A stretch of 64,000 bases of DNA, taken from Bryoerythrophyllum caledonicum (Eukaryota > Streptophyta > Bryopsida > Pottiales > Pottiaceae). The notes below the pieces were generated by a model that saw only the letters and a program-made list of their open reading frames with translations, ran no database searches and was not told the DNA's origin. The stretch spans positions 14,697,845-14,761,844 of the forward strand of contig OZ020524.1 of assembly GCA_963971425.1 (NCBI GenBank). The letters run 5' to 3'. Positions 3,496 to 46,459 of this stretch are shown one piece after another (positions within the stretch are counted from its first letter, which is position 1; every line of letters begins with the position of its first letter). The translations under genes and the position numbers were made by a program.

Positions 3496-4926
3496 ACTTA
3501 CCAAGCCAATCCATGATGTAGCAGAACCCCCGCCAACGTTCACAATGACATTGTTCTTCTCCCCGAGCGGGCCAATAAGTTGGTTAACCGCTTTGATGTT
3601 GTAATTGCCGCGGCCGTCCTCAACCCACTGAGTGCTTGCATCCTTGAAGTCCGCTACGTCAAGAACATGCTAGTAAACCAATTCATTACCAAAGAATCTA
3701 CGGAAGTTGTTTTCCGCATTGATATCAGGATCGTGACCGTAAAAGATGTTGAAGTATAAGGGTAGGGTAGGCTCAGGAGTTGAAGGTTTAGTGAAGCCAT
3801 CAATTCCAGACGTAATTTACAACGTCGAGGTACACTGCCACACTTGCTGCTGTTGGATAGCTTTAGCCCGCTCCGACACAACATTCTTTACTTCCACCAT
3901 CCCATCTCGATCGGTGATGAACACCCCAACGAGCAATGGCCTCCTGAATTTTTGTTTGTCCTTATACTTCATTGCACCCAAAGTACGGTTGACCTAATCC
4001 TTGATGTTCTAGCTAGTACCTCGCGACTCCCGATTGACGAAGCTGTAGACAACCACGGCCGTCGAACCTTTGATGTACCAGTTCAAGAGAGACTCGTGCT
4101 TGAGAGTCCTCTCTAGGTCTCCTAATTTCCGGTTCAGCACCCGAATACGATACTGGGTGGAAAACGAGGAAACCGAAGTCGACATGGTGGCCTCGTTCCC
4201 TGGTAGATGGGCGCTGATAGATCGGTGTTGCTCAAAGATTGCCTTCAGCAACGGTGCGATGTCGTTGGGGTCACTCGACAGGTTCAAGTTCTAGCCTCGC
4301 TTCCAGAAAAACGTCTTTCCGCCATCGTCCTTTAGAAGTCTGTCATACCACATCTGCATAACCGAGTCGCTTACCTTCAACTCCAAGGCAGCCTCTAGAT
4401 ACTCGTCCTCGCTATAATTCTCCTTGGCTTTCTTGGCAGGCAGCGGCTTACCCTTGAAGGAAAACATGAACTCGTTCTTGATGAGTCTAATCTTCTTTTC
4501 GGCGGCGCTAGTATCTTTGAGACCGGGAAGTACAACTGTTTTCTTCGTTGATTTCGTCGACTTGATCAAGATCTTGTGGTCAATCACAAGCTAGGCCATC
4601 TTCTCGATCTCAGAATCCTACATGGAATACAGTGGTTGAAGATCGTTCTGTTTGAGAACTCTGGAATGAAACCGCTTCGCCTGAATCCTCTTCTTCTTCG
4701 ACGTTAGCCCGCGATCCTCCTCTTCCTCCGTGTCATCATCATCAATGCCAGGGAAGTTGCATGTCTTCCCGAATGAGTTCGGAAGCAAGCTTTGAATCCA
4801 GGCATCTTGAATTCCTACCCATTTCCCGAACAGGTAGTCGGGAACGAATAGGAGCGGTAGTTTTGGCTGGCTCCATGCTTCCGTGTCTTTGACGAGCTTC
4901 CTTTTCTCAGTCACAATCGCCCCAAG

Positions 4927-4936
4927 CGTCTCAACC
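4927..4936. repeat. 10-bp target-site duplication, left copy
   Basis: CGTCTCAACC, identical to 21599-21608. A 10-bp duplication is within the 8-11 bp range of Mutator-like elements. Confidence 0.85.
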
Positions 4937-4995
4937 GGACGAAGCTATTTTGCGAGCATAGAGCGGTGAGCGGTGAGCGGTGAGCGGTAAGTTTT
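4937..4995 (+). repeat. MULE left terminal inverted repeat
   Basis: Begins GGACGAAGCTATTTTGCGAG and continues with tandem GAGCGGT heptamers (4961-4988). It pairs without gaps with the reverse complement of 21540-21598. Confidence 0.85.
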
Positions 4996-5289
4996 GAGAT
5001 ATTTTGATTAAAATGTAACTTTAAGCAGTAAGCTTGGGGTATTTTTGGTTTAATAGTATTTTTTGTAAATTTTTTGTTAAACTTCGTAAATATTGGGACC
5101 TATGACCGTGGACAATTAAGGGTTCTGATACAGGAAAAAATGTAAATATATCAGTGAAAAATCTGGTAAATGTGGTAAATTGAACATTAGAGGCTATGAT
5201 CGTGTACAATGAGGGCCTACGGCCGTGAAAAATTTGAATACTATCTAGGGTCTAGTGATTTAGAAACATTCTAGATTAGTAAATGGATT

Positions 5290-5530
5290 TTCACTGTATT
5301 AGAGTTGGGATAACATATAATTTTAGTCAAATGAGCATTGAGTATACTTAAAAATGAAATTTACTATATCACTAAGATGAGGCATACTGTACTAGTTATA
5401 TGATATCACTTACTGTTTCAGTGAATGGGTCTTATTGTTTTAGTAAATTGAGACTTACTGTATCAGTAATAAATAACTTACTGTCTCAAGTCAAAGACGA
5501 ACTGTTTCAGTATATTGAGAATTATACGTA
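5290..5530. repeat. Subterminal palindromic motif array in the MULE left end
   Basis: About eight degenerate copies of TTACTGNNNCAGTAA in 240 bp of AT-rich DNA. The clearest is 5455-5469 (TTACTG, TAT, CAGTAA, perfectly inverted). Others start near 5410, 5433, 5478 and 5510, with weaker ones near 5313, 5361 and 5391. Clustered short motifs just inside the terminal repeats often serve as transposase binding sites in cut-and-paste elements; that role is inference here. The rest of 4996-5669 is AT-rich with no gene. Confidence 0.5.
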
Positions 5531-5669
5531 CTCTTAAAGGGTCAAGCAATTTTGGAACAGTGAAATACATGTGGTGAGTCAAATATCTTGTAGTGGCCCT
5601 TTTAGTCTCACTACATCATGATTATAACAAATCCTCCATACATATGTTTCTCTGAAGAAACTCAAAACT

Positions 5670-8600
5670 CTAAGAGTCAAGGTACTTCAGTAAACCACCC
5701 TTCAAAACTCGCTTCACTTCGTTGAAGCTAAAACTAGCTGCATGAATGAACGTGTCTGATTCTGAGTCCAAACCAGACACTACAGTAAACAAATAGTACA
5801 AATGCTTACAGTTGGCCCATTGACCCCGTTTTCCAATTGCTTTAGTCGCCATCTCCTTGAAGTTAAGACAAGTGCATGCTGGCAGCTACGAAATTGTCAA
5901 GTAGTATTGTTGTACCTTTGGGGGCGTGCCGAAATCCAACGAGACAATGCATCCTAAGGCAGGTGCTGGAAGCATGCACAATTTGCGCACTCTACCTTTT
6001 AGTGATAAGGCTGAGGCACAATTATTGGCGTGCTTTGTTGACGGGGCCATCTTGTTGCGCCGAATCAACTTCCCTGAACGCCGGGTGGGAAACTCATCCG
6101 GATATGCAGGAGTCGTGTAGCTTGCTAAGTCCACAGGCAACGGGTGGTCCTGAAAAAGTCTTGTAGGTGTCATCTCCTTCCGCTGGGGCAGTCTAAAGCC
6201 TGCGTTTTCTAAAGAGAGGATCTCTTTGCAGGTTAAATTGGTCCCCAACTTAACCGGCCATACCTCTGGAACGCTCGGCACTGAGAGAACCCACTTCCTC
6301 TTTGTGCCCTTGACGCATCTCTCAATATCGTCGTTGCAAAAGAAAAAGTCCATGGTGTCTGTCCTATTCTTCCGATAGTTCTTCATGAGGCCCGAGTAGG
6401 TAGGTGCAGCGGTGCTCTTCTCGTCTTGTATAATCCGAGCAACGCACTTCTTCTTGGTGATTGCTTGTAGAGCAAAGCAAGCCTTCGCAGATGTCTTAGG
6501 TAGACGTCCGATGTGCCACTGGGCAGGGTTGCATATTGTTTCCTCAATTGCGGTGACGTGGTAACGGTCGAGCTGCTGAGGAGCGTCGTCTGATGGAAGT
6601 TGCGGCTACTCGTCATCTGTAGTTGTGGGAGAATTGGGAGTTATCACAGGAGGTGGAGAATCGTTCAGTCGGGCAGATCTGGTTTGGACGCGTGGTTGGG
6701 ATATACTGATCTTGTCTGGCCTGTGCGATTCACGTTCGTCACCAAAAGCAGTATCTGGTTTACGCTTCAGAGAAACGAACACCTCTTCCCCTTCGAGGTG
6801 GGGAGTCCTGGTGCACCACTCCTCACCGCCAGGCATCTTCAAGATGGCCTCATGAAGCGGTTTGGAGTTTCCTGTTTTTGCGGGTGACCTCTGAGCTCGC
6901 CTCAGCTTCAATTCCTCCCTCAACGGTCCGGTACCAGGGTTCTCTCCCTTCAGGAATTGATAATATGCTGAGCACTGCATGAAGGCACGCACGAAGTCAT
7001 CGACTGTTGCCACATATAGGTCGCTGCCTCTATCGCCTGATTGCTGCTTCCACTTGCTATGAATAGATTCCGCAAGGTTACAGGACGGCATTTCTGCTAG
7101 TTCGTCTTCATTGAGATCCTACAATATGAATACACTCCCATATTAGAATAATGGTCGAATTAGTGTAGTTGTACTATACAGAATGAACTATAGAGGACAT
7201 ATAGAGGGAAACCCAGACTTACCAATTCCATGAATCCACCCCACTGGCGGTAACGGAAATGCCAGAAGGCCAGCCAGAGCTCTAGTCGAGGAAGCGCTTG
7301 TTCAGTTGCTGCACCAGATGACATCCACCATGCCCGAATTGCCAGATACTTTGTCTCGGCTTCCGCCATCGATATTGCATTCTTGTATTGCTGGCATAGT
7401 CTTCGATGCTGAGATTGCAGGTCTTGACGGATATCAGCCTTGGTATGTTTCTCCAAAGACTGCGTCCAATGGAAAAGACAAGTCCTTTCTCTGTCCACCA
7501 TCTTCTCAGACGCATCTCCACTTCCGTATATGATTCGAACCGCATTCCAGTTGGCTTGGGCACTGTCGGCCATGAAACCTTTGAAATTGACATTGTCCAC
7601 TCCATGCGCAGCCATGAGGGCGTTGAGGTTCTTTCATACGACTGACTGGGCTGCAACATCTTCGGACTGCATGTCGCATACTGCAATTGTCATCACACGG
7701 CAATATGTGGAATCGTACACATGGCAAGCCATTGACGTCCACGACCTGACCCGTTTCACATGGTCAAACATTATCCAGGAGTTCTCAAGGTCACCACCAG
7801 TTTGCATTCGTTTCACCAGGTCGACTCCGCTGCCCGGTCCAACTTCAGACATCTTGAAGACAAAGACCTTGTCCATGTCCGCCCCTTGCCCTGGAAATTT
7901 ATTCTGCTGCACAAACTTCCAATTGCTAGCACCGCGTAACTTGATAATACTGTCCATGACTCCAAAGCGACGGATAGTCCTGAACGTGGTAACTGCGTTA
8001 CGAATGTTGGGCGAGGTGAGGTGCTTACAACGATTGAAAATACCTTGCAGCTCGTCCAGCTCCAAGATCTTCTGTGGTTCTCCTTCTTTAGCAAGAAGGA
8101 GTGGGCCCAGTACTTGCTTAGCAGTTTCAAGCACAATAGCCGAGCGAGTGGCTGATGGGGTGCGTTTGACTTGCTCCCCAATCAAGCTGTCTGTCAGTTC
8201 CATGAAGTCTCGATGATCACCTGACTTGACGGGATGGTCGTGAGATCCCAAGTGCACACAAGCCCTCGTAATGTGAGGTGAGGAAGTAACATAGTAGATC
8301 TTAGCAGGGCAGACAGCAACACAAGTGGGAGGGACGTTACAGGATTTGCAAACAACTGTCGAACCAGTGGGAGGCTTGGACCCCTCCTCAAACACCTTCT
8401 CAGACAATCCTTCCCACTCTGTCTCATTCACTATGGAAGTCCTTTGGTCTCGCTGAAGATACTCACAGTCACGGTTGTCGCAACGGAGGTGGCCTAAACA
8501 AGAGGATGTACGAAAAGAAAGATTCATATCATTCTGAATATTGGATGTAATGGTACGAGACCAAGCATGGCCATCGTACCGTCTATCCATTCCACGAAGC

Positions 8601-10286
8601 TGCTTGGCCTTTGTGTTCTGGCCATGGTCACCTAAAGGTAGAAATTTGAAGATAACGTCCCCATCGTAACAAGGGGGGAAGTAATCAACCTGCTGGAGTT
8701 TGATTGCATCAAAGTTAATTCGAGATAACACACTTTTGGAACGTTTACGAGCTTCGAGGCGCATCAATGAATGAATGATACTGACAACAGGACTTGCCAC
8801 AACCTTGGACTGACCAGGATGACGAGTCTAACTAGAGGAGTTGTTTCCTTCCGTACTACATGTGGAGACAGCCCGGCTTGGGCTTTACTCTCTGATCTTA
8901 GAATTTCAACCTCATTGTCGGAATCATCACTCAACTGATAAATTGTTTCTAGACCGGGCTCATTTTTGACCCAAGACAGCACTGGTCTCTCAATGCTAAC
9001 AGTGGACGACTCCCTAGGTGTTAGTAGTTCAGTCGAACCATCTAACACAGACTCTGAGACTCCATATACACGATATTTTCCGGGCTTGAGCAACCAGAAC
9101 GATCCGACTTCATTCTCTCCTCTAGTCTGAACAACTGCATGTGAAAGTAGACCGGTTTGATCGTCAAAAACTTCTTCTTCGACAAAGATAGTGTCCTCAC
9201 AAAACTGAAACCTCAGACTTAATGTTCTACAAGTGACTGTAGCCTGATCGTCTTCACCTAATGGAAAAAGGACCGGAACAGAATGATGATCAGCACGAAC
9301 AAGGGCCATAGTATTCCACACTGAAACTATGAACCACTGAATTCAATTTGCATCTAGTGAAGGACTTTAACAGCAGTTTGACACAACAAGTACACTGAAC
9401 ATTGAAATGGCAAGAATATATATCAGGAAAGGAATTACAAAGTAAACTGGTTATTCTATGTCACAATAAGAGGAATTTAAGAAGTTAAAAGAGAGTCCTG
9501 CAGATTAAGCTGAAAGACGGCTGCCAAAGTACAATTTTAGATGTGAGTCCGAGAGATGCAACAAATTGATAATGCCTTAAACATACTGTACCAATATAAA
9601 GATTGCTTTAGAAGTGGTTCTATCATACACACTCAAAAGCTGTTATGTTTAACTGTTTTCAAATAGTAGAATCCAAGTACAGGCATACAATCTAAACATT
9701 GATGGGTTATAATACAGATTAGCAAATCTGGTCATATGAATGACGGCTTCCACGAAGAATGTGGAGAGCATGATAATAGCTCTGAAATAATAAAATCCAT
9801 ACATCAGAAAGTACGAATGCTATATTCTCATTAACGACGAACACGCTTATAGGAAACTCTGGCATTATTGTCACAGTCATTGTTATGACAATGGTTAGTA
9901 TTAGAACTATGAACTGCAGTGCATACTGCTGAGCCAAGTCTCCGATCTTCGGGACGTGGGGTACTCCTTAATAGAGATCTTGAGTACATGACTGGTTTTA
10001 GAATCCCTACTTTAGAGGAGGCATGACTCTTGAGAGTAGACTTGACATCTGTCCGGGTTGTTCAATCCGCCTGCAACGATGAAGTCCGTTGCTCTGGACT
10101 GTGAATATCGTTTGCCGGTGTAACCACGCAGTCAGTTGGGTTGGAAATCTTCATGTTGTTGTTGTCTGAAACTCCGATACAAACAAATGGTCCATGAATA
10201 CCATCTATGGATAACGTGCAGTTAATTTGAGATGACCTAGGAGATCCTATACGAGCATGGCATGGAAGACTTGAGCGAGTTTCCAT
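5670..10286 (-). pseudogene. MULE transposase, broken
   Basis: Domains in order on the minus strand: an N-terminal exon (9321-about 8815), a Cys/His region (about 8560-8200, with CxxC pairs and a THACVHLGSHDHP-like ending typical of the zinc-finger part of MULE transposases; the sequence reads ACVHLGSHDHP), a DDE core (VYDSTYC near 7.7 kb, then GFMADSAQANW and the Cys-His motif RTCLFHW), and a C-terminal SWIM finger ACTCLNFKEM...NCKHLYYL (5870-5800). An intron at about 7118-7225 has GT/AG borders. One frame is otherwise open from about 8815 to 5670, except for in-frame TGA at 7634, TAG at 6606 and TAG at 5886. A frame change is needed near 8.82 kb. A first exon may start at ATG 10286 (MET...), below a TATA box; the link from 10062 to 9321 is unproven. 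The protein cannot be made full-length as written. Confidence 0.75.
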
Positions 10287-10334
10287 TGGAACAGGAGATG
10301 GAGAGGAGAGGAAGGTATGGGTAAAAGTACTCGA

Positions 10335-10344
10335 TATTTATATA
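10335..10344 (-). promoter_or_regulatory. TATA box for the transposase
   Basis: TATATAAATA on the minus strand, ending 49 bp above the ATG at 10286. That spacing suits a TATA box with a short leader, and it supports 10286 rather than 9321 as the start of the transposase transcription unit. Confidence 0.55.
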
Positions 10345-10711
10345 CACCTATGGTGGACCCTAATCTATGGCAACCTTGCTTATATCAATTAATAGTCAAT
10401 ACTGATTTATGTCATTTCTGGACAACCAGTTCAGCAAGGATTAGAATGTATTAAAATACTAGTTAAATAATTATCGCCAAAAATATCTGACATGGCAGGA
10501 TACGATTATCAAGATTAGATTTGAGCGCCGGCTTTGATAGTGAATTATTTGAGTGAGGATTAATTCTAACAACCTATATCAAATAATTTAAGAAACTGTA
10601 GATTAACTAAATATATCTACGAGAATGTGAACATAATGATTGAGCGTTGATGTTAATTATGATTGACGTAACAATGATAAATTGGATCTCTTTGCTTCAA
10701 TATTGTGAGAG
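10345..10711. promoter_or_regulatory. Divergent promoter region between the two MULE genes
   Basis: AT-rich spacer between head-to-head genes. An AAATATATC stretch near 10.61 kb could act as a TATA element for the plus-strand gene, but it is weak. Nothing else recognised. Confidence 0.35.
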
Positions 10712-13700
10712 ATGATCACTAGATCGAAAGCGAGAGCAGATAGAGAAGTCTGGAGGACTATAGAAAGACAAAGGCGTTTCGAGAGAAGGCAAAGGATAGA
10801 ATCAAGAGAGAGCTTAGAGACGCCGTACAATTTGCGGCCAATAATGGGTAGACGAGGGGGTAATTCTTCAAGGGGTACTGGTAGAGGTTCCAAAGGGAAT
10901 AAGACGTTTGATGTCTCAGCAGTAGCTCCCATCGTGTTATTTCCAGTATCAGAGGAAGACAACCCAGTTGACAATGGGGACAGTGAGGTGTTGTATATTT
11001 GTTTTCCTAAAGATGTTCTTTTTTGTGCAATCGTAATGTGAACTTCTATCTAGGATTTCTTAGGAAAGTATAGACCCATTTCTTTTTCCTTGACGTGTGG
11101 GTAGTATTATTGGCACCTTTATGAAAATTTCTTATCAATGGTGTTCGAAAGTGACTTGGATTTGGCTTCGGCATCTGGAACAGGAACTGAGGCAGGGACA
11201 GGCTAAACTTGGGGCAGCCTCGAGTGCCTCAACATCACATCATAGTGAGCAGCAAGTTTGCAATAAGTGCTTTCCATTGCTAACTGGTTTTAGGTCCTAT
11301 GTGATGATTGCTTTCCGGTTCTTACAGTTTCTTAGGTCAGCTTTATAGCGAATGAGCAAAGGACAGTCTTTTCCGCAGACTCAACAGAGCACAGGAGAAT
11401 TCGATCGCAACTCTGACGCTGTCGATATGGTCGAAGGCAGCATGGATAATCAGGAGCGGCACTTCGAGGAAGAGGTACGTTGTGAAACCCAGAAATCTCA
11501 TGTGAGTCTCTTGTATAAACCTGCGGCGTTCCTTGAATGTGTTTCTTGGTTTAGGGTTCGCAGATCCCCAAGGCTGTTGACTTGATTTGCGGTGGAGGTC
11601 CTACCTGAATCAGATTTGTGTTTAGATGTACGAGATAGTAGAAGGAACATCGTAGCCTTCACTGTGACATGGAATTGTCCAGATTGAGAGTCTCGGCCCC
11701 GAGAGAGACTTCAAAAGGCTCACGGGCTATAACTGATTGCATATGGTGTGTTCAAAATATGAATATCGGGATAAAATGTGAAGGTCTGTACCTTTTTTGC
11801 AGCTTGTGTGTCCAGATCGTTGCCGCGAGAGGCATTTGAGACATTTCATTCTATTAATTCGAGAAGCAGTCTTGGGGGTTCGGAATCTAAGTTCACAGAC
11901 ACCTTGAGTTAAGTGTGCTTACGCATTTCATGAATTCAGTTGAAGAACATTTCTGTATCGAGAATTATAGTGACAATTTGGGGTGAGAGATTGGAATGAT
12001 GTTGAGAGATGGAAGGGTCGCATCACACGATGATGCCACCGGCCCAGTTCAGCATCTTAGGTCGTTGTGCACGCGTGAATCGAACTATGTTCTAATAAGC
12101 GCCAACATTAGGTACAGATATTTCAGAACTAATACACTCCAGCTCCTCCTTGAAAATCGGAATAGACGCTTGGTGCCAGTGCAGCCACTCGAAGTAATGC
12201 GCGTCCAGCGTCTCGGCGTGGCAGAGGCCGTGGTCGATGGGATCGAGCTCCAGCGAGTCCTGGAACATGCTCCCGTCCACCTTCATCACGAGTATGTTGC
12301 CCGCGAGGTGATCCGTGTTGTACAACCGGATATCGTGGATGCCGATCCGGTGGACGGAGCCGGCGGTGAATCGCGACGTGCCGATTTCCTCCGCCACGGC
12401 GTCGTGGCGGACGACTTGCTGGAACGGAGCGATCTTCGCATTACCTAGCTGCGCGTGTCCGTTCACGTTGAACACAGAATGGGTGGCGTTCACCAGCGCG
12501 GTGACTGGCACCTTGGCGTCAAACAGGTGGTGATATGAAAGAGAATCTGTTAAGGCATCAATTTAAGTAGGAATGATAATGAGCATCTGCGCCGATATGA
12601 TGGATATGCTCTCCTTCTCTCCGAGTGACCGAGTGATCTCTAATCAAAAGGTAGTGCTTCTTGGAAGAACATGGCCAACAGCATGACTCATATTTTAATC
12701 ATACAGTGAAAGTGAATTTTCTAGATTGTCCCTATCGATGCCGAGAGAGACTTTTGAGAACTCAATGGATCGCGTTCTGTCAACTCTGCAGTGTGTAGCG
12801 GATGAGGGCGATGCAGTCGATCTTCTTGTCTCGGCACCGAGACATACTTTCTGGTAATCTTTGCTTAGAATCATCGACTTCATTTGTGAAGCCTAAGCAT
12901 AGTAATTGTCATTTAGTTCGCGGATATCAGTGTTGACCGAGCAGGGTGGCCATCAAAATCAATTTTCTTCAAAACCGAATATGAGTGTCTCGGCTCCGAA
13001 CATGAACTTCGAGATTAGTAAAGGTACTTAATTTGTTTCTTGCGAAAGTTCATGACGATATCAAGAATGCCTATTTCGGTTCGAAAATCATAAATGGATT
13101 TATCATAAATCCCTTCAGGATTAGTTGGTGAGAAGATTTACTTCATGCAATGTTCTGAAATAAGTATGAATTGGAATGCCGCATGCACTGAATTGGTCTT
13201 AGTTGATATAATTTGAGTAGGTCTAAACTAGTTTAAGGTTGAGCTTTGACTGTCTCGGGACCGAGACTGACATATAGATGAATTAGTGAACGAGGCAAAA
13301 TAATAATAGCTACATCTAGAGGTACGCTCTGAGTTTAGTTTAGATGTTCGGAAGTATGTGATTAGCGTCCAAAGGTTAATTTGAAATGATTTGACTTGAG
13401 TTAGTGTGAGCCTCGGTCTCGATTTTCATAAAGTGATGAATAAAAATAGCCTCCAGAAGTTGTTGATCATCTCGATATACTTGCATTGCACTGAAATGAG
13501 TATACATAGCATTGCCGCATGGACTCAAAAAACAGATTCAGTTCTAATCGATTTGGTCTGAACTTGTTTTTGAGTTCTTCATTTCAGAGTCTCGGGACCG
13601 AGACAAACATCTCGATGCATCAGAAAGGGAATGAATATTTAACTGGTTCACTTCGAGTTACGCTCTGAAATCAGCTACTGTATTTGGTTGAAAGTGATTA

Positions 13701-16700
13701 GCCTACAATTTTATTGATGGGAGGTTTTGTTGGTCTCGGGCCCGATATATGTATGACTTAGGATTTTGTTCAAGCATTTCAATTAGATGTCTATTTCACA
13801 TTCACTGTAAAGCTGATATGATAATAGAAATTGCAGGTGCCTGCTGTCTTCTTGACACACTTATATTTCTAATTTGCAGGTTGAGAATTCTGGTAAGGAG
13901 GATGCTCTTGTTGTTTCATCACCGGTGGCGACTCCGGTTTCACTGAACAATTCTGAAGAGGGTCCAAATGAGGATGAAGAGGGGCTTGGAGATCGAAATG
14001 CATATGAAGGGGATGAAGATGATATCAGGATTCGACAGAAAGTTAATTCTGTTGCCACGATTTCTCGACTGCGAGTCCAACCCCTGAGTTCCTCAAGGTT
14101 CAACATTCCCTTGTGCAGAATGCTGGCCATGCCTATGGTAAGACCAACTCTCTCAAGTGATCTTGCAAAATTGGAGCGGGAGTTCGTCCATGGGTATAGA
14201 GAGGGTGCCTCAGTATTCTATGTCACAATAACAGATGAAGATGGCAAAACACATGAGGTGACTGAAGCGGATAAGGCATCATGGGATCCCATTTGGAGTG
14301 CCAAGAATGAAGAATTCAACTCCTTTCTTCTGTCCGTTCCGGAGTTAGCCAGTTTAAAGAATTTGATGTTCTTCGTATGTGACGGGAACCATAGGCGGCA
14401 GGCTTGGTTGAATCATATTCAAAGACTTCACAAAACAGATGAGGCCTGGCATTGTCTGGTGGATAGCATCCTCCTTGACACTAAGGGAAAAATAGGTGTT
14501 GTTATGCAAGTTATGCATAACATCAACAAGTAAGTATTCTCTATTATGTAATGCTTATATCTATGCAAAGCACTTAAAATCTACATATTTTTTGATGTGC
14601 TAATCTTTACTCAATTCTTGACAATTGCAGACATACTGAAGACTCTCACTTCAAGACCAACACAGTTCACACTCTATTCAGGGTGCAGAAGTATGGACTT
14701 ATGCCGCTCGAACAGTACCAAGACATATTGACTCCAGCCGAAATTAAAAGGTGCAAGAAATCTCAAAATGCAAAGAAGACGTGGTATTCGTTAAATCTAC
14801 ATGTATTTACGAACTTCATCTTCCAGGTATGCCTCTAAAGTACTCACTCTGAATGACCTATTCATGCAATTTGTATCTTTAGTTTATTTTCACATATCGC
14901 AGTCTGCGGGTAAAGTCTTTGTCTATTAGTCTTGGTCAAAAACTATTATAGATCAGATTTGAGGATTTGGCTAATTTATTCGGGTTGCACGGGGCCTAGT
15001 CAGGTTGCGTGATCACAGCTTCTCATCTCGGAACTGTTATGTTTATTGTCGGGTTGTTTGACTGTAGAGGAACCTAATAAACGTTGTAGCTGTAGAATGG
15101 AAGAGGTCTGCTAGCAGGTTAAGGACAGGCTTAGTGTGAGGAAAGATGTTTGTTCATATCACTGTATAGGAGTTGCCGGTAATCGGTTCGAGTTCGATTC
15201 AGAATCTTACTGCTAATCCTTAGACCATCATCTTATAGAGCAAATCGGTAAGTCTCTCTAGGAAATTGCTAGGATACATTTGCAGGTCCCTTTTCTTCAC
15301 AGGTGCAGTTAAGTCTTGGTACTGAGACACACCCTTGTCAGTATTCTCGGATCTAAATGAAAAATATTGAACAAAAATCAGGCCTGGGCCAACGTGAATT
15401 GATATAGGAACACTTTTACGACGATCAGTTATTTGTCTAGTACCAAATCAGTTATAGGTCTCGTACGAAATCAGGCGCGGTATAGTATGTAGACTTGGTG
15501 ACCATAATTTGGACGTGCAACTTCAAGGCTGCATCAGCCATCAGTTCACCCAATCCATCGTGAGATTGTCCGAATTTGTTGCTAGGTTTCAAATCAGTTC
15601 CCGACTGTCTCTCAGTTTTCTGTTTCCAGTAGTTACAGTCTTCTTTTACCAATTGTTGTAGTCTTCTTGTCCCTCAACTGAATTCAACCGCACAATCTTA
15701 GAAGAATAGTCATAGATATCTACAAGACTGTGAGTCTAAGATAGCCACAGTGGCCGGAATTCAGTTCCTAAGATTGTGATCGAAATCATGATCATTATGT
15801 ACGCATCTTAGAGAGTTGAAAGTGACTCTCAATACCGAGACAAAGTTTGACGATATTCTTGTCATTCCAGTTCGACAACAGGAACTAGAATTTCAGCAGT
15901 ACCTAGAATCTAGAATCTGGTACTAGTGATTAATGTCCGTCTGGTGTTGTTCAGTTATGTACTTTGCATAAAAGTTTCGACTACTTCATATATATGCTGT
16001 TATTTTACGTTTTTTTGAATGTTCTCCGATGCATTGATCGTGTTCATTGTGAAAACAGGGAATGTGATTCGAATAGGCTTCTGATATTGGCTACAGAAAC
16101 TTGTAAAATTTCCATGTATACAATCGTGATCAGAATACCTTATTTGTCGCAGTTGTGTGATGACAAACTAACTAAGGTAATCCCTATGCAGCACGAACTT
16201 GGACTTGCTGCAGATGAGGGTGTTCGTCAACTTGTTGAGCAAACGGATGGAGAGGTGTGTGCTGCTGAAAGAGCAGCCGCTATGAAGGTCGCAGCTTCAA
16301 AGAGAGCAGAGGCACTTCATAAGAAAATGTCAAAACTAGTTTGTGTGGCAAACCCAAAGTTGACTGAGGGATGGCTTTGGGAGGTATGTCTACTACTGGA
16401 AGGCCCATATTTCATACTTCAAGTATTTATATATGTTTTACAATTCTAATATATTGCTCTATGGTTCACAGATTGAGCGTCACTATACCCTTAACTCAAT
16501 TACACCGGAGCTCAACTTAGAGAAATTGCAGTTGATCGCTACTGCAAAAGCATCACCCGCATTTAAAATCAAATGGTTGGAATATTTTAATTCCTCTACA
16601 TCTACACGTGAAGCCCGCAAGCTGCCAACCAAGCCTACCAACGAGGAGAAATTACATGCATTCCTTGCCAGGGCATGTTTTTGGGCCGGAGTGAGTACAT

Positions 16701-19700
16701 AACAGCCTATGTACCCTTTAGTTCTGTATGACTTGATTTGAGCAGTTACAGAAATTCAGTCTTGCTCTCGATTTTTCTCACGGTTTTGTTCTTGGTCATC
16801 CATTTGGTCTTGCTCACTATGATTTCATTCAATATGTCGGTTATGTTCTCAATCTCGTTCTCGGTCTTGCTCACTCTGATTTCAAAAATTATGTTCTCAG
16901 TCTTGTTCTTGTCCTAGCTCACTCTGTTTCGACAGATTTTCAATCAGGCATCCATTCTCTTTGATGACACTTTGCGCCAAGACAGACTAGCTATCAACTT
17001 TGAAATACCCAGCGAGCCCTTGACCTTGGCTGCATACATCGAGGACTGTAGAATGAAACTATGGGACAATGCGTTCCCCACCTTCTTCCGAGGGCAGGAG
17101 GCTTTTAACAAAACTCTCGAATTTGTTGGTTTTAATGGGACTGACTTGATTGTGCGAAGAGTACTCTTTCGGTGAGTTTTCTCCTTTAATTACTAGTATT
17201 CATATATTTGGCATAGTAATTTGGATTTTCACATGACAGGTTTTCCTATAGCACGGTATATAATGATGAGCTGTTTTTTACCTGCAGGTATTTCAAGTAC
17301 GATCTCCTTGCAAAAGGAGCAATATCAAAAGAAAATCTCCCCATATATCTCTCTGCATGGCTTGACAGGTCAAACTCAACTTGCATGTTCTCAGCAAATC
17401 AACAGCGGACTTGGTCAACCTCACATCTCACAAGAGGTGGATGGTACCTCGACTGTGCTCCTAGTTTCACTCCTTCCTTTGAAACTCAACTTAGAAAGTC
17501 AAGGGAGGCAGTTGGAGAATCTGGTGTTGAGATGGTTGATTTACAGGGCATAGAAGACGAGCACAAGAGGGCAAAGGCCCTCTCGCGACGTCTAGAGGAA
17601 GATAGGAAGAAAGCGCTAAGGGTGAAGGAAGCAGAGGAGAAAGCGGCCCAGAAAGAGATGGAGAAACTCCAGAAGTCTCTGGAGAAGACTAACAAGAGGG
17701 GGAAAAAGAAGATGAACCCCCCTCCAGAGCCAGAAGGTAAGAGCCCACCTGCGCCTAGTCCTACTTATGACTCTGGTTCTCATGCTCCAACTCAGTCTAG
17801 AGGAACCAAACGCGATTCCTCCTACGAGCAGTTAAGCCAAGGAATCCCTATTATCCTATCGACTGAGGAGCATGATGGCCAAGTTGGGGAGTGGATTAAA
17901 AACTTCTCACTAGAAGAAGTCCTTGGTGGCGACACGGGCAGCTTGAGTCCTTTATTTGACGAGTTAAAGAGCTTCATTTCCAAGGTACTACCCTGTTCAA
18001 ATGCTTTGCTTTGTTGAAGATTTCATTTAATTAAATTTTCGAAGATGCGTAGTCTGCACAGTTAGTTGTCAAGTCCAAGGTGCTTACTGAACCTCGCGAT
18101 GCTCGAATCAAGCTAACCAACTCTAAAATATACTCAGAATCTGCGTCATAATAGTCAGCAATTCGTGAGCAAGTCACATGTGATCAGTTCTGAACTACAT
18201 TCTAGATGTGCCAGATTCGAAGCTCGCAGTTTCAGTTTCGGTACAGAGACCTTGGATTTGAGGACTGTTTTTTTGTTTTTGGTTTTTTACGATCATTGAT
18301 TCTGAACCGGGTTAGTTGACTTGCTGCAGTATGGACCTGAGCCAGTTCTACCCTCACGGCTGTGTTCTGTTGTAATAAATCTAATCGAATTTCCTTTGTC
18401 AAGTCTTAGTCAAATTCAGTAGCCATTTTAGTTGGACAGTTTCCATTTTAGCTGATTATCTATCAGAACAATACCTGGTTCTATCTTTATATTTGAGAGA
18501 TTAGTTTTCATTGCTTGGTGTTTAAAAATGTTGTACATATGAGCCCCTGTTCGGTAGAATTTTTGACTACTTCCTTTAGTCATTAACCAGTTTCTTACTG
18601 CTGACATGTGGTTTATTTGATAACAATTGATGATTTTCATCTTTTAATATTTTATAGCTCCAAGTCATGTAATTTGTGCATGCTTTTAAAGATTTGTCTA
18701 AGTTTTTTCACGCTCTCAATATTGTTTATTCATTCGCAGTACTCAAGTGTCAAAGCCCGACGCTATAAGGGATCTGCTGCGGAAGTACCCTGTGTGGACT
18801 TGATTCTTGCAGATCTTCCAGAGGGCCTTCCTGTTCTCGGAATTTCGAATCCACCTTGGTTTGTTCCCGCCTGGAACATAGAATCTGAGGATTGGTTTCA
18901 AACAATCTTTGATTTCGCAGACCATCACCTCCAAGACGATGGGGCGATAATTTTGTTCCATCCTTTTCAAATGACTACAAAGTCAAGCATTCTTGGGTAT
19001 TGTTCCACGTATGGATTTGCTGTTTGCAAGGAGTGGTGGGGGATGAACAAGCTTCACCTGACGTCCCCAATTAATCATGCCTTGACTGTGAGTTCATTTT
19101 ATGATATGACTTATTGCTAATTTGATTGATTGATGTACCTTTTGTTATATCTCGTTAGCTATTCCACATATTCTATGACATGCAAACTATGTGCAAGCGG
19201 ATGTCCATTACTTGGTATATACTGCAGTAAAATAATTTGTAATAACATTTGCTTGTAGCCATGATTAGTTATAATGTGGATTAGTGATAATATGTGCTGC
19301 TGTGATAGTATGTGATGGAATATGAATGCCGTAGCTGATTTTCTATGTATGTGCACACCATTGTTGACAATCAGACAGCTTGTTTAAATTCGAGTCTGTG
19401 ATAGTATGTGCCACTGATGGCTGATGTGAATCTATGTACATGCAATGGCTGTATAGTGAGTATGTGCATGGTAGTCGTTGTACGTGTCGTTGAAATTTGA
19501 CTAGGCCCAGGCTGATGTTACATCGGGTTGTACCGAATTGGCTGAGACAGAATTCGAGATAGCCACGGCAGTTTTAGTGATCCAGTTTGTGAAACTAATC
19601 TTCCATTTCATTTGCTAGAATGTGCTTAATGAATTTTATCTTCTTTTGTAAGTAAACTAATTCACTGTTTATGTAATCTGCAGACCATGAGGTTTGGGAT

Positions 19701-20658
19701 AACCTTAGTTGTGAGGAGCATTCCGGGAGTGTCTGCTTCTAGATTTTGCTTTCACCACATCCCTGCACTAGACCGTCACGGGGTTGATGTGGCACGGGAT
19801 GACATCCTCCAGAACTTGGTGTCAAGGGAGGATCAGTTAATGGATGGATCCACCCCATGGCGTGGTCCTCGTGAAAAATCCGTCGTCCTTATGCAGATGC
19901 TCATTCAGGCATCTTCTTCGCCAGGGGATATTGTTCTAGACTGCTCTACAGCTACGGGTACGTTTAACATCTCTTCTCGTGTAAATAAGTAATTGTTGAC
20001 CATTTTATGTTAATTAATTTTTATGGTGATTGAAAATTGAACTTCATTGTTTTTTTATTTTGCAGGAGCTTCTATTCATGCCTGCCGCAATGTGAACCGT
20101 CACATTGCGGCATTAGAGGCTGATAAGGCAATTTTTGAAGCCTTGATCGCTCCTCTAATTCAATCTGCTCCTGCCATAGAAGTGAAATCAGGAGACGCTG
20201 TCATCTCTGAGGATCCAGATTGCGAAGTCATTGTTGTTCAGAAGATCGTGAAGAAGTCAAGGTTTAGTAAGTGAGTATAGCTACAATTTCTACTACTAGT
20301 GTTATCTTTTCTAATTTGCTTTTATATGTAGCGGTTTTATGAACATGTTGTCATTTGCATTTGCAGAAGCGGTAATCTCAGATACCCTATTCACCGCCCT
20401 TTTTTTTGTGACCCTAAGTTCTATCCAAGCCCTCCAAAGTCCTGGCAACTCCCTTCATACGCAAATGACGTTGCCAATGAATTAGCGGAAGGTTCATATC
20501 GAACATTTAGACCTAAGAAGTTGTTGCTAAGAGGTATAGAGTATGTTGATTTAGAAGCTATTGAGTCTGAGGATGAAGGCTCTTCAGATGCAGATAGTAC
20601 AGATTCTAAAGTCTCTGTAGAATTATATGATAATTGTGATTTCGATTATATGACTTAG
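10712..20658 (+). CDS. ParB/sulfiredoxin-like domain fused to a DNA methyltransferase-like domain
   Basis: Model: 10712-10987, 11349-11474, 13880-14529, 14631-14826, 16153-16383, 16472-16690, 16936-17171, 17288-17984, 18740-19087, 19684-19957, 20066-20270, 20367-20658. All junctions from 11474 on have GT/AG borders and keep frame, giving about 1,249 residues with a TAG stop. The N-terminus is basic (YNLRPIMGRRGG), followed by an acidic linker. A ParB/Srx-like domain spans about 210-370, with FFVCDGNHRRQAW near 302. A Lys/Glu coiled coil lies at about 735-785. The methyltransferase domain (about 878-1160) has class-beta order: VDLILADLPEG near 900 at the motif IV position, NPPW near 912, then PREKSVVLM and GDIVLDCSTATGAS, the AdoMet motif I, near 1080, with ALEAD at the ribose-binding position. 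Motifs IV and I are divergent, so activity and target base (N4-C or N6-A) are open. A possible extra exon near 11105-11199 is unresolved. Confidence 0.7.
12092..12511 (-). pseudogene. Captured fragment of a phosphatidylinositol 4-kinase gamma gene
   Basis: An open stretch of 139 codons, antisense to the host intron and richer in G+C than its surroundings. It matches the kinase core of plant PI4K gamma: THSVFNVNG, then IGIHDIRLYNTDHLAGNILV (catalytic loop), DPIDHGLC (metal-binding segment) and HYFEWLHWHQASIP. The family loop is normally D-R-H-A-G-N; here the Arg and His are replaced, so it is catalytically dead. No N-terminal ubiquitin-like domain and no remaining lobe are present. It looks like a host gene piece picked up by the MULE, as in Pack-MULEs. 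Antisense RNA against the parent gene is possible but unproven. Confidence 0.75.
12925..13748. repeat. Diverged tandem repeat of about 337 bp in the intron
   Basis: Landmarks recur about 336 bp apart: the perfect palindromes at 13252 and 13589, TACGCTCTGA at 13323 and 13659, GTGATTAGC at 13358 and 13694, and CTGAAATRAGTAT followed by TGCCGCATG near 13154 and 13492. This indicates two full units and a partial third, each with a palindrome at its junction and another mid-unit. Confidence 0.6.
14827..16152. other. Long intron of the methyltransferase gene
   Basis: A 1,326-nt intron, AT-rich and without a recognisable gene. Two weak family B palindrome relatives occur in it. Confidence 0.5.
16745..16935. 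repeat. Short intronic tandem repeat
   Basis: Two to three imperfect units of a GGTCTTGCTCACTCTGATTTC motif set with intervening GTTCTC(A/G)GTCTTG, about 60 bp apart, filling most of the intron 16691-16935. Confidence 0.4.
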
Positions 20659-21539
20659 CTAGAATTTTGTGCTTATTGCTTACATAATAATATATTTTTG
20701 CATTTGATTGTTCAGTGTTCTTTTAGTGCGGTAATCTTCATGATTTTCCTTAGACAGTGAATAATATTCTGTAATGCCTTCGTAAAAAGAGTCATCATTT
20801 TCAATTCCTTAGTAGTAGGCATCTATATTTTAAAATGTACACACAATGGTTACGTAACGTATATCTCTACATTTTGCAGTTATAGTTCCGTCATTGATAT
20901 ATAATATTTGATGTTATTTTTAAATTTATTTACCATGTTCCATTCAAGTGGCACATACAATATTCTTACACTCTATCATTCAATAAGACATAGAGGTAAA
21001 CTACCTCAGTATCCACCATAGCATCATCCATGTAACAAAATTTAAAACAAATCCCAAAAAAAAAAAAAAAAAAAGAAGTTGAAAATATAGATCAAAACAT
21101 GAAACAAAGACTAGGGAATCGGGAATAACGGGAAAACAAACCCAAAAAATTAAAGATGAAAAATATAAAATTCCAATACATTTTTAAGAATGAAAAAAAA
21201 TAAGAAGATAGAGTGGAAGAAGAATGGAAGAATAAACAATGAGAAGATAAAAGGAAGAAGAATGGAAGAATAAAAAATAAAAAATTAAATAATGGAAAAA
21301 GAATGGAAGAATAAAAAAATAAGAAGATAGAATGGAAGAAGAATGGAAGAATAAAAAAATTGCACTGTCTATTTTGTATTATAATAATTACACCCTCGCA
21401 TTCTAAAATTTCCCCCAAGTCCCTGAACCACGGATATAGGCAGGATTTTTTCCCTAAGATATTGAATTATATTCAAAATAACTACCAAAACCGCGGTCAT
21501 AGGGTATGCTTCACGAGACAGCAATTTCCAAAATTACAG
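20659..21539. other. MULE right-end non-coding region
   Basis: AT-rich, no gene seen. It includes an 18-bp A run near 21057 and purine-rich tandem units based on GAATGGAAGAATAAAAAA between about 21,190 and 21,360. Confidence 0.5.
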
Positions 21540-21598
21540 AAAAGTTACCGCTCACTGCTCACCGCTCACCGCTCACCGCTCACTAAATAGCTTTTCCC
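21540..21598 (-). repeat. MULE right terminal inverted repeat
   Basis: On the minus strand it begins GGGAAAAGCTATTTAGTGAG and runs into GAGCGGT heptamers. Confidence 0.85.
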
Positions 21599-21608
21599 CG
21601 TCTCAACC
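21599..21608. repeat. 10-bp target-site duplication, right copy
   Basis: CGTCTCAACC. On the minus strand it reads into GCATGGGTTGAGACG, the start of the interrupted exon, preceded by a TTACAG acceptor. Confidence 0.85.
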
Positions 21609-22150
21609 CATGCCTGTAATATAATGTTTCAACTAAGTCAGACCGGAGGAAAATGATTGTGATTTAAGCAGAGCGACCGGAGGATCCTCCGATTAGATCT
21701 AAGGGGAAGAAAGTTGGAAGAATATCAATCGAGACTAACCTTAAACTCGGGCGTGTTAGGATTACCCCGAACCGACAGCCTTGGGCAGCCAGCTTCTTTC
21801 CAGCTCTCCCACGCGGTTGTTAGCTGGGTAATGTAATTACCCTCGGTTCGACTGCTAATAAGATCTTGGTTGAGTATTCGGGAATAATATGCAAGGCTAC
21901 CAAAATCCGATGGTTTCACCCACACGATGGTGACCACAAAGTTCCGCACATCCTCGGCGTCTCTAGGTCTCAGACTTCCCTCGTTTATAAGAACCTTGTG
22001 CGCAGCAACACAGTGTTGGCCACCAATGATGTAAGAGTGGGTCCGTATGTTGATGTCGTTCTTCGTTAGTTTCTGCTCGAAGTGCACTGCGGGTCTATCT
22101 GTTGGATCATCCTCATCCACCTCATGAGGAGGTCTCCGAATCGGCATCAT
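21609..22150 (-). pseudogene. ParB-like gene, 5' exon
   Basis: First exon 22150-21740 (ATG, 137 codons), followed by a GT donor and an intron down to the acceptor at 21614; the last 5 nt belong to the split second exon. The exon encodes an acidic start (PHEVDEDDPTDRP) and a ParB/Srx-like core, THSYIIGGQHCVAAHKVLI, near residues 38-56. In the ParB family the motif is usually GxxR; here the Arg position is Cys, encoded by TGT, which is one C-to-T change from an Arg codon. With the exons at 2722-4936 it predicts about 836 codons if the internal stops are ignored. No methyltransferase motif was seen, so this is a different ParB-like family from the one inside the MULE. Confidence 0.55.
21641..21694. 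repeat. Palindrome family A, one near-full copy and one half copy in an intron
   Basis: GACCGGAGGATCCTCCGATT at 21675-21694 and a left half GACCGGAGGA at 21641-21650, in the first intron of the ParB-like gene. Confidence 0.65.
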
Positions 22151-22164
22151 GACCTGTAGTGGAG

Positions 22165-22335
22165 CTACTTTTGGAGGGTAGCTATTGACTTTAGTGCACC
22201 CCCTAGATGCCGTTTTGTCCTTTAGGGGTCTAGATTTGGAGGGTAGCTATTGACTTTAGTGCACTCTTTAGATGTTATTTCCACCTTTTGGGGATCTAGT
22301 TTTGGAGGGTAGCTAGTGGCCTTTGTGTACTTAAG
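22165..22335. repeat. Tandem repeat, about 65 bp, three units
   Basis: TTGGAGGGTAGCTATTGACT starts units at 22171 and 22236; a diverged third starts at 22302. It lies just upstream of the ParB-like start codon on the minus strand, so it could be part of that promoter or of the border of an older element. Confidence 0.6.
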
Positions 22336-43717: not shown

Positions 43718-46459
43718 CACTAAACATCACATTTAGTGTCGTCTACACTAAATACGAACTCTTACACTAAAAGGAAGAATTACAATTAGTGTACCGACAC
43801 AACATTACACTATATGTGAATTGCAGTAAAAATGGGTGGTTTTTTTTTTTACTTGTGCACAATTAGTGTATGAAAAATCTTGCCGCAGTGAATAAAATCA
43901 GCACTATTCAAAGGAGCATAAATCACTCAAAAAGGATCGGAATTACAGTCATGAGATGTTTTTTGACATCTACATTTTCTGTAGATTTCAAAAAACATAT
44001 CATATGTTTAATTTGAAGAAAATATGAGTAAGTTATGGGCATTTCCAGAGTTTGGTGATGTAAATTCAACAAAGTGGCAAAAATGAAGGAACATTTGTAT
44101 AAAAAAGACTAAAATCATAAGACATGCAATATATTGAATAAAATAGGGGTATAAAAATATGTAAGGAAAATGGAAGTAGAATAGTGGAATCATATAAAAA
44201 TGGACTCATACATTAATTTGCCATAGGCAAATTTGGGACTTGTTGTCCTTCAAAATAAGGACGATATTTTGCAATAATTTCCCGAAGGTGGAGAAATAGT
44301 TGCTCAATAGTCCAAGTGCCATCTAAACCTAATGATAAACTGCACCTAATCATGGCCTTTCGGGCATATGAAATATGTTGAGAATCAACCATGCGGTTTA
44401 CATCATCCACGGCATTTGCTGCTAATTGAAGAAAAAATTGCTTACTAGGATTTTGAAGCTTCCGGGACCATTGACCGTCACCACGTGGAGTATTTTGCCA
44501 TGCACTTGCTTGAATAAGCTCGGTTTTTTTTGCCTCCCAACGCTTCGTCCATGCGTCTTTAATTTTTGAAATAATAAACGTGTCGGCGGGTTGGCAAAGG
44601 TGAGTCGCACAAGGAGGTAAGTATCTTAAAATGGTTCTCTTGACCGCTAAAACGGCCACCAACCGAGGGGTTACATTGTGGGCCGTACAATTGTCCACCC
44701 ACACGTATTTTATACGGTTGTGGATGTCCGGTTGGTAAGCCCTAGCTTCCTCAAAATATTGTGGAAACAAATGTTGGTCCATCCACCCTTTGGACCATGT
44801 ACGGTAATTAACACCCGGAATAGAGTCGTCCAAACCTCTAATTGGGTAATTACTGTTTGGATTAGAGAATATCAACATTGGTGCCTCTATGATTGCTCTA
44901 CGGCCTCCGGAAATCCTAACCACCATGGTCATTGCCTCTCCGTCGGCAACAACATCCGCATACTTCACGGAAGTATCTCCACGAAAGCCAAGGGTTTTAC
45001 CATTGTCAACATTAATGGAAAAGTGAGTTTCATCCAAATTTTCCATCAAATTTTCATCAAATTCGCCCGAAAGAAACCCACGGTGTAAAATGCTTAAATG
45101 GAAAGTTGTGTTCATTTCAATGTGTGCCTTTTTTTCCGGACTACAAGTTAGACGACCTCTTTGTGACAATAATACTATACTATAGGCATCCATAAAATGG
45201 GAAATCCATACATTTGTTATTTTCTTTGTTAATAGAACATTGTCCTTAGGGTCGGTTGATTGGGAGTTGTAAGGTGAATCTATCGATAAAAGAATAGAAA
45301 GGGCCAGTTCTATAAGGATGGCGGGAGAGAATTTTACCCCGGAGGTGCGGTACACTTCAAAAGATTGCAGCAGCTTTGGGTATAGCCATTGCACCCAAAG
45401 CGAACGACGGGGCCCTCGTCCTCCGGCAGTTTTGGTGAGAGTCCGCTTTCGGATGCCCATGGTGCTACGCGTGATCTGGGCGGCTTGGAGGTGCGAGCTG
45501 TTTTCTGCTGGGAGGATGCTGTCGCGTAGGTTCCACCAACGGCTAGCGCGGATGAGGTTGGTTCGATGTTGGCCGCGGAAATGCTCTGGAAATGCGGTGA
45601 TGGCACGGGTGGTGAGTCCATGAGTGCCATGGAGCGCGTGGTCCTCCACCATCCACGCCACGACGATCCGTCGTGTTTGGATGGTGGCAACCTGCTGAAC
45701 TGCTCGACGATGTGGGATGGGAGTTACATCTGTGATTTCATACCTAGGGGCGGTTGTGCGGTGGCGTCGTCACTTTGGTCCATGGTGAGCGCGGGCCGAG
45801 GTCAAGCGTCGGTCGCTGGTGTTGTAGGTAGGGCCGTGGTCACGCGTGGTGTCATGGCGGTCTTGAAACCCGTAAGGTTTGGGCTGACCCCCCACAAAGC
45901 CTGTCCAGATTAGTCCGGAAATAATCGCAGGCAGCCCGTCGAAATAGACTCAACACAGGACTGCAAGACTTCGCACGGAATCGGCCACCGGGGAATTATC
46001 CCATATGGTTTGCCACAGCTACAGCCAGCTCCCGCGCAGGTCGGGGTATAAGCCCCCCCCTCCCACACGTAGGAAGTCGAAAATAGAGTTTTTCTTGAAC
46101 CCTGGACTAGGAGCCCTCGTCACCTCAAACCCGAGAATTCTAGTAACCAGCAACTCCTATACCGAATTCCAGTGAACAAACAAGGTGAGAGCTCGAGCTC
46201 AAGAAAGAGATGGAATTATAGGTAGGGTTTCAATGAAGAGAATTAAAGCATGACGGCCGGTAGGCGAATGATTGGGGGTAGGGAGAGGTGGAAAACAAGA
46301 AAAGTCAACATAGAGATTAAATACTTGACTGCTAGTAGGCGGTTGGTGGAGGCATCATCAATGATGTTGGCCGCTAACACTAGTTGTGAACAAGTTCGCA
46401 AATAGTGTAGTTGGGTAATTACACTATTTGTGTGACTACACTAAATGCAATGTTTAGTG
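43718..46459 (-). mobile_element. pogo-like DNA transposon
   Basis: 2,742 bp flanked by TA. The left end CACTAAACATCACATTTAGT is mirrored by the right end (reverse complement CACTAAACATTGCATTTAGT). Both ends carry several further TTAGTGT/ACACTAA motifs. One long minus-strand DDE ORF lies inside. Confidence 0.75.
44213..45661 (-). CDS. pogo-like DDE transposase (DDE_1 family)
   Basis: An intronless ORF of about 482 codons. Acidic motifs in order: NLDETHFSINVDNGKTLGFRG (first Asp; written here as its parts NLDETHF and DNGKTLGFRG), YVWVDNCTAHN (second Asp) and LCQPADTFIISKIKDAW (third Asp), with YLPPCATHLCQP before the last. The middle GVNYRTWSKGWMDQHLFPQY is typical of the larger pogo/Jerky-like group. 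A second frame (45783-45334) starts at ATG 45783 and could be the true N-terminus joined by a one-base shift near 45.45 kb; it has one TAA. There is no obvious CENP-B type helix-turn-helix. The catalytic part looks intact. Confidence 0.75.
   Translation of the reverse strand: MAWMVEDHALHGTHGLTTRAITAFPEHFRGQHRTNLIRASRWWNLRDSILPAENSSHLQAAQITRSTMGIRKRTLTKTAGGRGPRRSLWVQWLYPKLLQSFEVYRTSGVKFSPAILIELALSILLSIDSPYNSQSTDPKDNVLLTKKITNVWISHFMDAYSIVLLSQRGRLTCSPEKKAHIEMNTTFHLSILHRGFLSGEFDENLMENLDETHFSINVDNGKTLGFRGDTSVKYADVVADGEAMTMVVRISGGRRAIIEAPMLIFSNPNSNYPIRGLDDSIPGVNYRTWSKGWMDQHLFPQYFEEARAYQPDIHNRIKYVWVDNCTAHNVTPRLVAVLAVKRTILRYLPPCATHLCQPADTFIISKIKDAWTKRWEAKKTELIQASAWQNTPRGDGQWSRKLQNPSKQFFLQLAANAVDDVNRMVDSQHISYARKAMIRCSLSLGLDGTWTIEQLFLHLREIIAKYRPYFEGQQVPNLPMAN

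Follow-up and report, generated by a model that had tools for sequence, protein, structure and literature searches.

The window analysed here, 64,000 nucleotides of Bryoerythrophyllum caledonicum DNA (14697845-14761844 of contig C12, in a 437-Mb genome with 894 contigs), contains a DNA transposon of 16.66 kb at 4937-21598. Two divergent genes lie inside it: a transposase-like gene and a second, intron-rich gene whose predicted protein combines a ParB-like motif with a phage-type methylase fold. It is practically certain that this is a mobile two-gene element with a conserved second gene. The spliced genes in the window identify it as eukaryotic DNA, and by eye its translations resemble those of a land plant, perhaps a bryophyte. 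An earlier note on this sequence had described the second gene as a ParB-methyltransferase fusion carried by a Mutator-like element (MULE); the observation is confirmed and holds in a stronger form than first stated. The linked transposase gene and a set of palindromes in the introns of the second gene come in addition to it. The explanation that we propose, a two-gene MULE whose accessory protein would target its own element through these palindromes, is in our judgement evenly poised between right and wrong. Copies are labelled below by contig or by locus number.

Ends, copies and linkage of the two genes

The element is bounded by terminal inverted repeats at 4937-5000 (+) and 21540-21598 (−), which match each other at 87% over 54 nt. 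They begin GGACGAAGCTATTT on the left, where tandem GAGCGGT units are present, and GGGAAAAGCTATTT on the right (reverse complement); the right repeat is defined by the inverted-end match and by comparison of copies. Identical 10-base-pair (bp) target-site duplications, CGTCTCAACC, flank the element at 4927-4936 and 21599-21608 (read by eye). The right end is preceded by purine-rich tandem repeats (21186-21360) whose copy number varies between element copies; more matching repeat units are present in C7 and C11.

The same ends recur in other copies. In 20 left halves fetched, the match to the window starts at 4935-4939 in nine and at 4932-4975 in five more; the other six are truncated or have diverged too far for their start to be read. 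Among five right halves fetched, the C3 copy aligns to 4936-21599 at 98.6% and then stops, and the last matching base of the C7 copy is 21598. Perfect 10-bp duplications are read by eye in four of the five copies with both ends readable, namely the window copy, C3 (CTCCGCGCAC), C7 (ATGGCATTTC), and C9 (TTTTACAGTG); in the fifth, C1, the right end is altered. Because the copies share both ends and carry their own duplications, the two genes move as one unit. The bounds 4937-21598, which the earlier note did not give, thus enclose the gene as it had stated. MULE target duplications are tabulated at 8 to 11 bp (PMC6446971). The element has both terminal inverted repeats and a duplication in this range, and we label it a MULE because its ends and duplication length fit.

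The two genes are linked throughout the family. Searched as DNA, the ParB-like exon gives 40 scored matches and the gene's 3′ portion 42, of which 40 were used. For 38 of the 40 ParB-like matches, a 3′ match on the same strand follows downstream within 26 kb; two of the ParB-like matches (C1:4591968 and C1:4587946) derive from a single locus. Transposase DNA gives 42 matches, or 40 once two fragments are left out. Of these, 38 are within 30 kb of a ParB-like exon match and 37 are divergent and upstream; conversely, 38 of the 40 ParB-like matches have a transposase match within 30 kb.

Protein searches extend the linkage to more distant relatives. They point to a far larger family, with first-look candidates numbering 1,776 for the ParB-like exon (best 150 scored, at 44-100%), 1,600 for the methylase exon (best 150 scored), and 2,612 for the transposase, not all of them confirmed as family members. 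The transposase search gives 105 matches, and at least 62 of these have a divergent ParB-like or methylase match within 25 kb: at least 33 of 36 at 85-100% transposase identity, at least 8 of 29 at 71-79%, and at least 21 of 40 at 61-68%. Five further pairs are recognised by eye with a second ParB-like query (C15:13465178, C4:570926, C2:36372396, C2:30078247, and C15:10182453). The transposase at C2:21777162, initially unmatched, has a second gene in the adjacent 4 kb (L036), and the divergent pair is preserved at two distant subfamily loci read directly, L034 and L035. In accordance with the earlier note, the gene and the MULE ends are therefore not independent: the gene travels with the element and is linked to it in related copies.

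We also considered that the group of transposases at 71-79% identity might lack the second gene, since few of them at first showed a ParB-like match nearby (at least 4 of 29). This grouping is contradicted for one member by L036 and for others by the methylase matches (at least 8 of 29 divergent).

The transposase-like gene of the window lies at 5673-9310 (−), within approximate limits borrowed from L020 and L027 and supported by open reading frames (ORFs). In L020 and L027, open transposase frames of 750 and 718 residues are followed by one of 490 residues, which ends in a CxC...CxH pattern that is SWIM-like by eye; a DDE-like stretch is also recognised by eye. The window frame contains at least three stops. 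The stop at 7634-7636 is absent from all 15 other aligned copies, and L020 and L027 read through the positions of those at 6606-6608 and 5886-5888. Since its transposase is broken, the window copy would depend on other copies for transposase.

The second gene and its protein

The second gene comprises 13 exons at 10844-20658 (+) and encodes 1,216 codons plus a stop, with no internal stops and with GT-AG borders in 12 of 12 introns. The start that the earlier note placed at 10712, giving about 1,249 codons, is now set at the ATG at 10844. Exons 1-3 (10844-10987, 11184-11255, and 11388-11474) are the least certain and follow from the exon model and copy comparison. After intron 3 (11475-13879), exon 4 (13880-14529) encodes the ParB-like part with the motif DGNHRRQAW. 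Exons 5-8 (14631-14826, 16153-16383, 16472-16690, and 16936-17171) are placed by the model and the copies, as is exon 9 (17288-17984), which encodes a charged stretch. The earlier note called this stretch a coiled coil; by eye, it is coiled-coil-like. Exon 10 (18740-19087) encodes the methylase motif IV region (DLILADLPEG), as placed by the phage alignment, and exon 11 (19684-19957) begins the motif I region (VLDCSTAT), as placed by Pfam and the alignment. Exon 12 (20066-20270) and exon 13 (20367-20658), with an acidic tail and the stop, again agree with the copies.

The exon structure is conserved. In C3 and C7, lengths and splice edges are preserved in all 13 exons; in C9, length is altered in exons 11 and 13. 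The distant copies C1 and C11 retain standard splice edges in 9 and 7 of the 13 exons, respectively. The rates of nonsynonymous and synonymous substitution were compared as dN/dS by the Nei-Gojobori method, with ranges from a codon bootstrap. The ratio for the window copy is 0.22 (0.18-0.26) against C1, 0.36 (0.29-0.51) against C7, and 0.44 (0.33-0.65) against C9 for exons 1-10; against C11, synonymous sites are saturated. By domain against C1, the lowest values are those of the ParB-like part (0.09) and of the methylase (0.12, at a synonymous distance of 1.65, near saturation), followed by the coiled-coil-like stretch (0.22), the middle region (0.25), the C-terminus (0.33), and the N-terminus (0.39). 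Against C7, the ParB-like part gives 0.19. Between subfamilies, then, purifying selection has shaped the gene, as would be expected if the protein were needed for spread; between the two closest copies it is not detectable. A chance or artefact gene is ruled out by the conservation of splice sites and frame and by dN/dS.

The C-terminal part is very probably a phage-type beta-class N6/N4 methylase fold, judging from sequence matches. The Pfam model N6_N4_Mtase (PF01555) matches with 29.0 and 33.4 bits, above the cut-off of 26.7, and spans the motif I third alone. Among PDB sequences, beta-class adenine methylases match (DpnA, E 6e-8), and in PHROGs, DNA methyltransferases match, in both cases mainly over the motif I part. 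A tblastn search in phages gives 479 records at E≤1, 53 of which span at least 80% of the query. Among the 20 phage matches listed, identity is 22-26% over alignments covering 95-99% of the methylase length. The motif IV half is assigned from these full-length matches to phage methylases and from the alignment. Motif IV precedes motif I in the sequence and the alignment with phage enzymes, which agrees with the permuted domain predicted earlier.

The N-terminal part is harder to assign. The pattern D-x-N-H-R-x-x-A-W is invariant in nine sequences, and the glycine of DGNHRxxAW is changed in one. The ParB/Srx superfamily carries a DGxHRxxA-type motif. No ParB relatives are found in Pfam, PHROGs, PDB sequences, or phage, plasmid, or IMG/VR searches. 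A ParB/Srx relationship is probable on the motif, and because the label comes from the motif, we use "ParB-like" as a lead. In the ParB-methyltransferase fusion of the earlier note, the methylase half is thus borne out by Pfam and phage matches, and the ParB half stands as a motif. The prokaryotic or viral source that it suggested fares likewise: the methylase half has relatives among phage methylases, and no sequence matches were found to support the identity of the ParB part or the origin of the fusion as a whole.

Intronic palindromes and the role of the protein

The introns of the second gene contain a recurrent 16-bp palindrome, GTCTCGGNNCCGAGAC. The window has seven sites with up to two mismatches, three of them exact, all in these introns, and none in the other 47 kb. 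Five of the seven lie in intron 3, at 11690, 12828, 13252, 13589, and 13733, together with all six copies of the core TCGGNNCCGA; the others, each with two mismatches, lie in intron 5 (15313-15328) and intron 9 (18235-18250). The number expected is 0.01 per element under a first-order Markov model (100, 10, and 60 runs in three scans), a null that ignores phylogeny. The window therefore shows an element-specific repeated motif in non-coding parts, as in VANC-type systems.

The palindromes recur in other copies. C1 has eight sites of the GTCTCGGNNCCGAGAC type, five of them exact, though its introns 3 and 5 cannot be aligned to those of the window by blastn. The core TCGGNNCCGA is found six times in the window element, nine times each in C1, C11, and L028, six times in L026, and three, five, and one times in L034, L035, and L036. 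The expected number is 0.02-0.13 per element sequence; the rest of the window has none, with 0.57 expected. In total, the sites recur in or near second-gene introns in seven of the eight element sequences scanned, of which C11 and L028, from a single subfamily, are not independent. The recurring form of the core differs by subfamily, being AGTCGGAGCCGACT in L034, TCGGTGCCGAA in L035, and ATCGGGTCCGA in C11. Judged by coordinates, the cores precede the ParB-like exon, on the transposase side in elements where a transposase was identified; the exceptions are three of the nine C1 cores, which occupy intron 5.

The genome as a whole contains 239 exact 16-bp sites; the reversed pattern, used as a control, occurs once. 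The first 50 of these, all on contig C1, form 22 clusters. Nine clusters (22 sites) have a ParB-like or methylase hit, among those listed, no more than 10 kb away; neighbourhoods of this kind make up 1.05% of the contig.

Dyad sites, a conserved protein whose ParB-like part is a putative DNA binder, sites that outlast intron change, and subfamily-specific forms together suggest recognition of the element by its own protein. The protein would consist of a ParB/Srx-like motif domain, a middle region, the charged coiled-coil-like stretch, and a C-terminal altered methylase fold. We take it to be dimeric because the 16-bp dyad site suggests so. It would bind the palindromes, a step for which we see the case as balanced, and load onto its own element. 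Once bound, it could keep the element transcribable or shielded from silencing, in the way that VANC acts on VANDAL elements; alternatively, it could help assemble transposition complexes. The anti-silencing role, drawn by analogy, is tentative and somewhat less likely than the binding itself; the silencing-evasion function raised in the earlier note would fit, as an accessory role, at that strength.

Several observations weigh against this explanation. Under the lifted exon model, each of the five other copies read has a stop or frameshift: one stop in C3, two in C7, five followed by a frameshift in C9, several in C1, and one in C11. The stops at residue 390 of C1 and residue 288 of C11 may result from mis-set exon edges. 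Between the window and C3, the closest pair, there are 8 synonymous and 34 nonsynonymous changes (dN/dS 1.2, 0.7-3.2) and no constraint is detected. The methylase is weakly constrained against C7 (0.37, 0.15-0.74). The transposase matches no Pfam model (nor any PDB sequence), and an AlphaFold model of the ParB-like exon from nine sequences has a mean predicted local distance difference test score of 48, a quality that leaves it unfit for fold searching. The exact 16-bp form does not occur in C11, L027, L028, L034, L035, and L036. The left halves L012, L013, L015, and L026 also lack it and have three or four sites with one mismatch, and L036 (4 kb read) has a single core site. Finally, 13 of the 22 clusters (28 sites) have no listed hit within 10 kb, and the second ParB-like query adds none; examples are at 3605387-3607962 and 48421448-48424109 of contig C1. 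These clusters may belong to unlisted family members or to another element.

The palindromes could instead be read by the transposase or by host transcription factors, in an enhancer or promoter module, with the second protein acting otherwise. It might, for instance, help integration, as mudrB does in maize. Sites located between divergent genes or in second-gene introns would suit cis elements, and the clusters away from a listed second gene favour this reading as well. By contrast, flanks that vary by subfamily around a stable dyad core fit a co-evolving protein of the element, which does not tell which of its proteins is involved. We consider this alternative rather unlikely, and it is the strongest of those weighed.

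A second alternative is active self-marking, in which the methylase half would still modify the element at the amino groups of adenine or cytosine, and the mark would keep it active or set it apart. The matches to beta-class N6/N4 methylases, the purifying selection on the methylase against C1, and the preserved acidic start of motif IV are in its favour. The catalytic motif of N6/N4 methylases is (D/N/S)PP(Y/F/W). We compared motif IV in 15 sequences (window, C3, C7, C9, C1, C11, L035, and L040-L047), including eight short methylase stretches hand-picked from the 150 scored methylase-exon hits. All 15 retain the acidic first residue as D; at the third position, 13 have P and 2 have Q. The motif reads D[LP]PYG in four of four aligned phage proteins, as against DLPEG in the window: the aromatic position is occupied by E in 12 copies, D in 2, and N in 1, and by an aromatic residue in none. 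The glycine loop is changed as well, from GSGT or GSGS in the phage proteins to ATGA, AIGA, ATGS, or STGS in four aligned copies. Because motif IV has no aromatic residue in any of the 15 copies, active DNA marking is doubtful, and the DNA-marking function proposed in the earlier note lacks support in that form. DNA methylation activity is likely altered or lost, and we regard self-marking as improbable. Selection on a fold whose catalytic motif has changed argues for a role in binding or sensing, as opposed to standard amino-methylation of DNA, though its chemistry may instead be altered; the methylase fold probably binds DNA or S-adenosylmethionine instead of marking DNA.

At the RNA level, the palindromes might form hairpins in the long introns and serve as splicing or small-RNA signals. 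Dyad symmetry preserved while flanks vary by subfamily would suit a stem, and a two-base spacer is tight for one; we hold this to be quite improbable. That the second gene is a captured passenger, host or foreign and functionless for the element, recalls the tendency of MULEs to acquire host gene fragments (PMC6446971) and the kinase fragment in the window copy itself, but the same divergent linkage of transposase and second gene in distant subfamilies, with purifying selection across them, rules this reading out for practical purposes.

The kinase fragment, at 12092-12562 (−), lies antisense within intron 3 and matches the PI3/PI4-kinase family (PF00454, E 2.2e-10). It is also present in C3, and 12136-12517 is absent from the alignments of other copies. 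The fragment is a recent gene-fragment capture.

Surrounding sequence and relation to known systems

The flanks of the element, 21725-22246 (−) and about 4200-4926 (−), may by eye form one interrupted minus-strand gene. The right piece contains a GGQHCVAAH stretch, faintly ParB-like by eye, and has no Pfam match. Elsewhere in the window are an ORF of 518 residues at 44213-45769 (−) with a DDE_1 superfamily endonuclease match (Pfam, E 4e-10), two inverted arms of 625 bp at 53912-55634 that are 100% identical and each contain an ORF judged transposase-like by eye, and a lipoxygenase gene at 57246-61018 (+), two ORFs of which match PF00305 (E 1.8e-107). A FAD synthetase match is below threshold (22.7 bits, cut-off 27).

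Accessory epigenetic genes in transposons are already known, among them VANC, TET/JBP, SET, and mariner methylases. The VANDAL/VANC system of Arabidopsis is likewise a Mutator-like element with an accessory gene and with repeated motifs in introns and non-coding parts that vary with the protein; VANC binds these motifs and induces loss of DNA methylation (PMC5735166). VANC21 recognises a 9-base motif, YAGTATTAY, compared with the 16-bp dyad here, and the available text of that paper mentions no ParB-like or methylase domain (PMC5735166). Unlike in VANDAL/VANC, the dyad core here is common to the sampled subfamilies. Fungal DNA transposons encoding TET/JBP dioxygenases, and oomycete MuDR and Harbinger elements carrying SET domains, similarly bring an epigenetic-type enzyme of their own (PMC12730594); in the present element, its place is taken by an altered N6/N4 methylase fold with a ParB-like part. 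Methylases reported to come from viral sources are also found in mariner elements, which are eukaryotic-type transposons as well (PMC3627910). There, the endonuclease and methylase are separate proteins in another transposon superfamily, and a ParB-like part is unmentioned in the available text.

Phage and plasmid ParB-methylase and polyvalent proteins combine a ParB-like domain and an adenine methylase in one protein (PMC5512222), as the second gene would. Here, the gene is eukaryotic and intron-rich and its ParB-like part has no sequence match, whereas the phage relatives fetched are stand-alone methylases.

Bacterial ParB-parS systems resemble the element in having 16-bp dyad sites clustered near the gene. 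In contrast to them, the element has no ParA, no canonical CTPase motif is seen, and binding of the palindromes is predicted.

A ParB-methylase gene in a MULE was not found in the literature searched, which is no proof of absence, as preprints and most subscription papers lay outside its scope. The words "methyltransferase" and "ParB" do not occur in the main text of a MULE survey (PMC6446971).

We advance, as a conjecture that is possible but not likely, that a plant transposon lineage took up a prokaryotic-type ParB-methylase, disarmed the methylase, and rebuilt a ParB-parS-like self-recognition system that co-evolves with intronic palindromes, marking copies of a subfamily as self and shielding them from silencing. 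If real, the palindrome system would, to our knowledge, be the first of its kind in a eukaryotic transposon. As far as we know, few of the proteins by which plant transposons escape silencing are understood in detail, VANC being among the best. The family would add an independent case in which the domains have an identifiable origin, a candidate DNA site has flanks that vary by subfamily, and protein and site come in natural pairs; it also presents a phage-type methylase fold maintained under selection after its catalytic motif changed. If true, self-recognition could explain the abundance of the family (1,600-1,776 first-look exon candidates in the genome).

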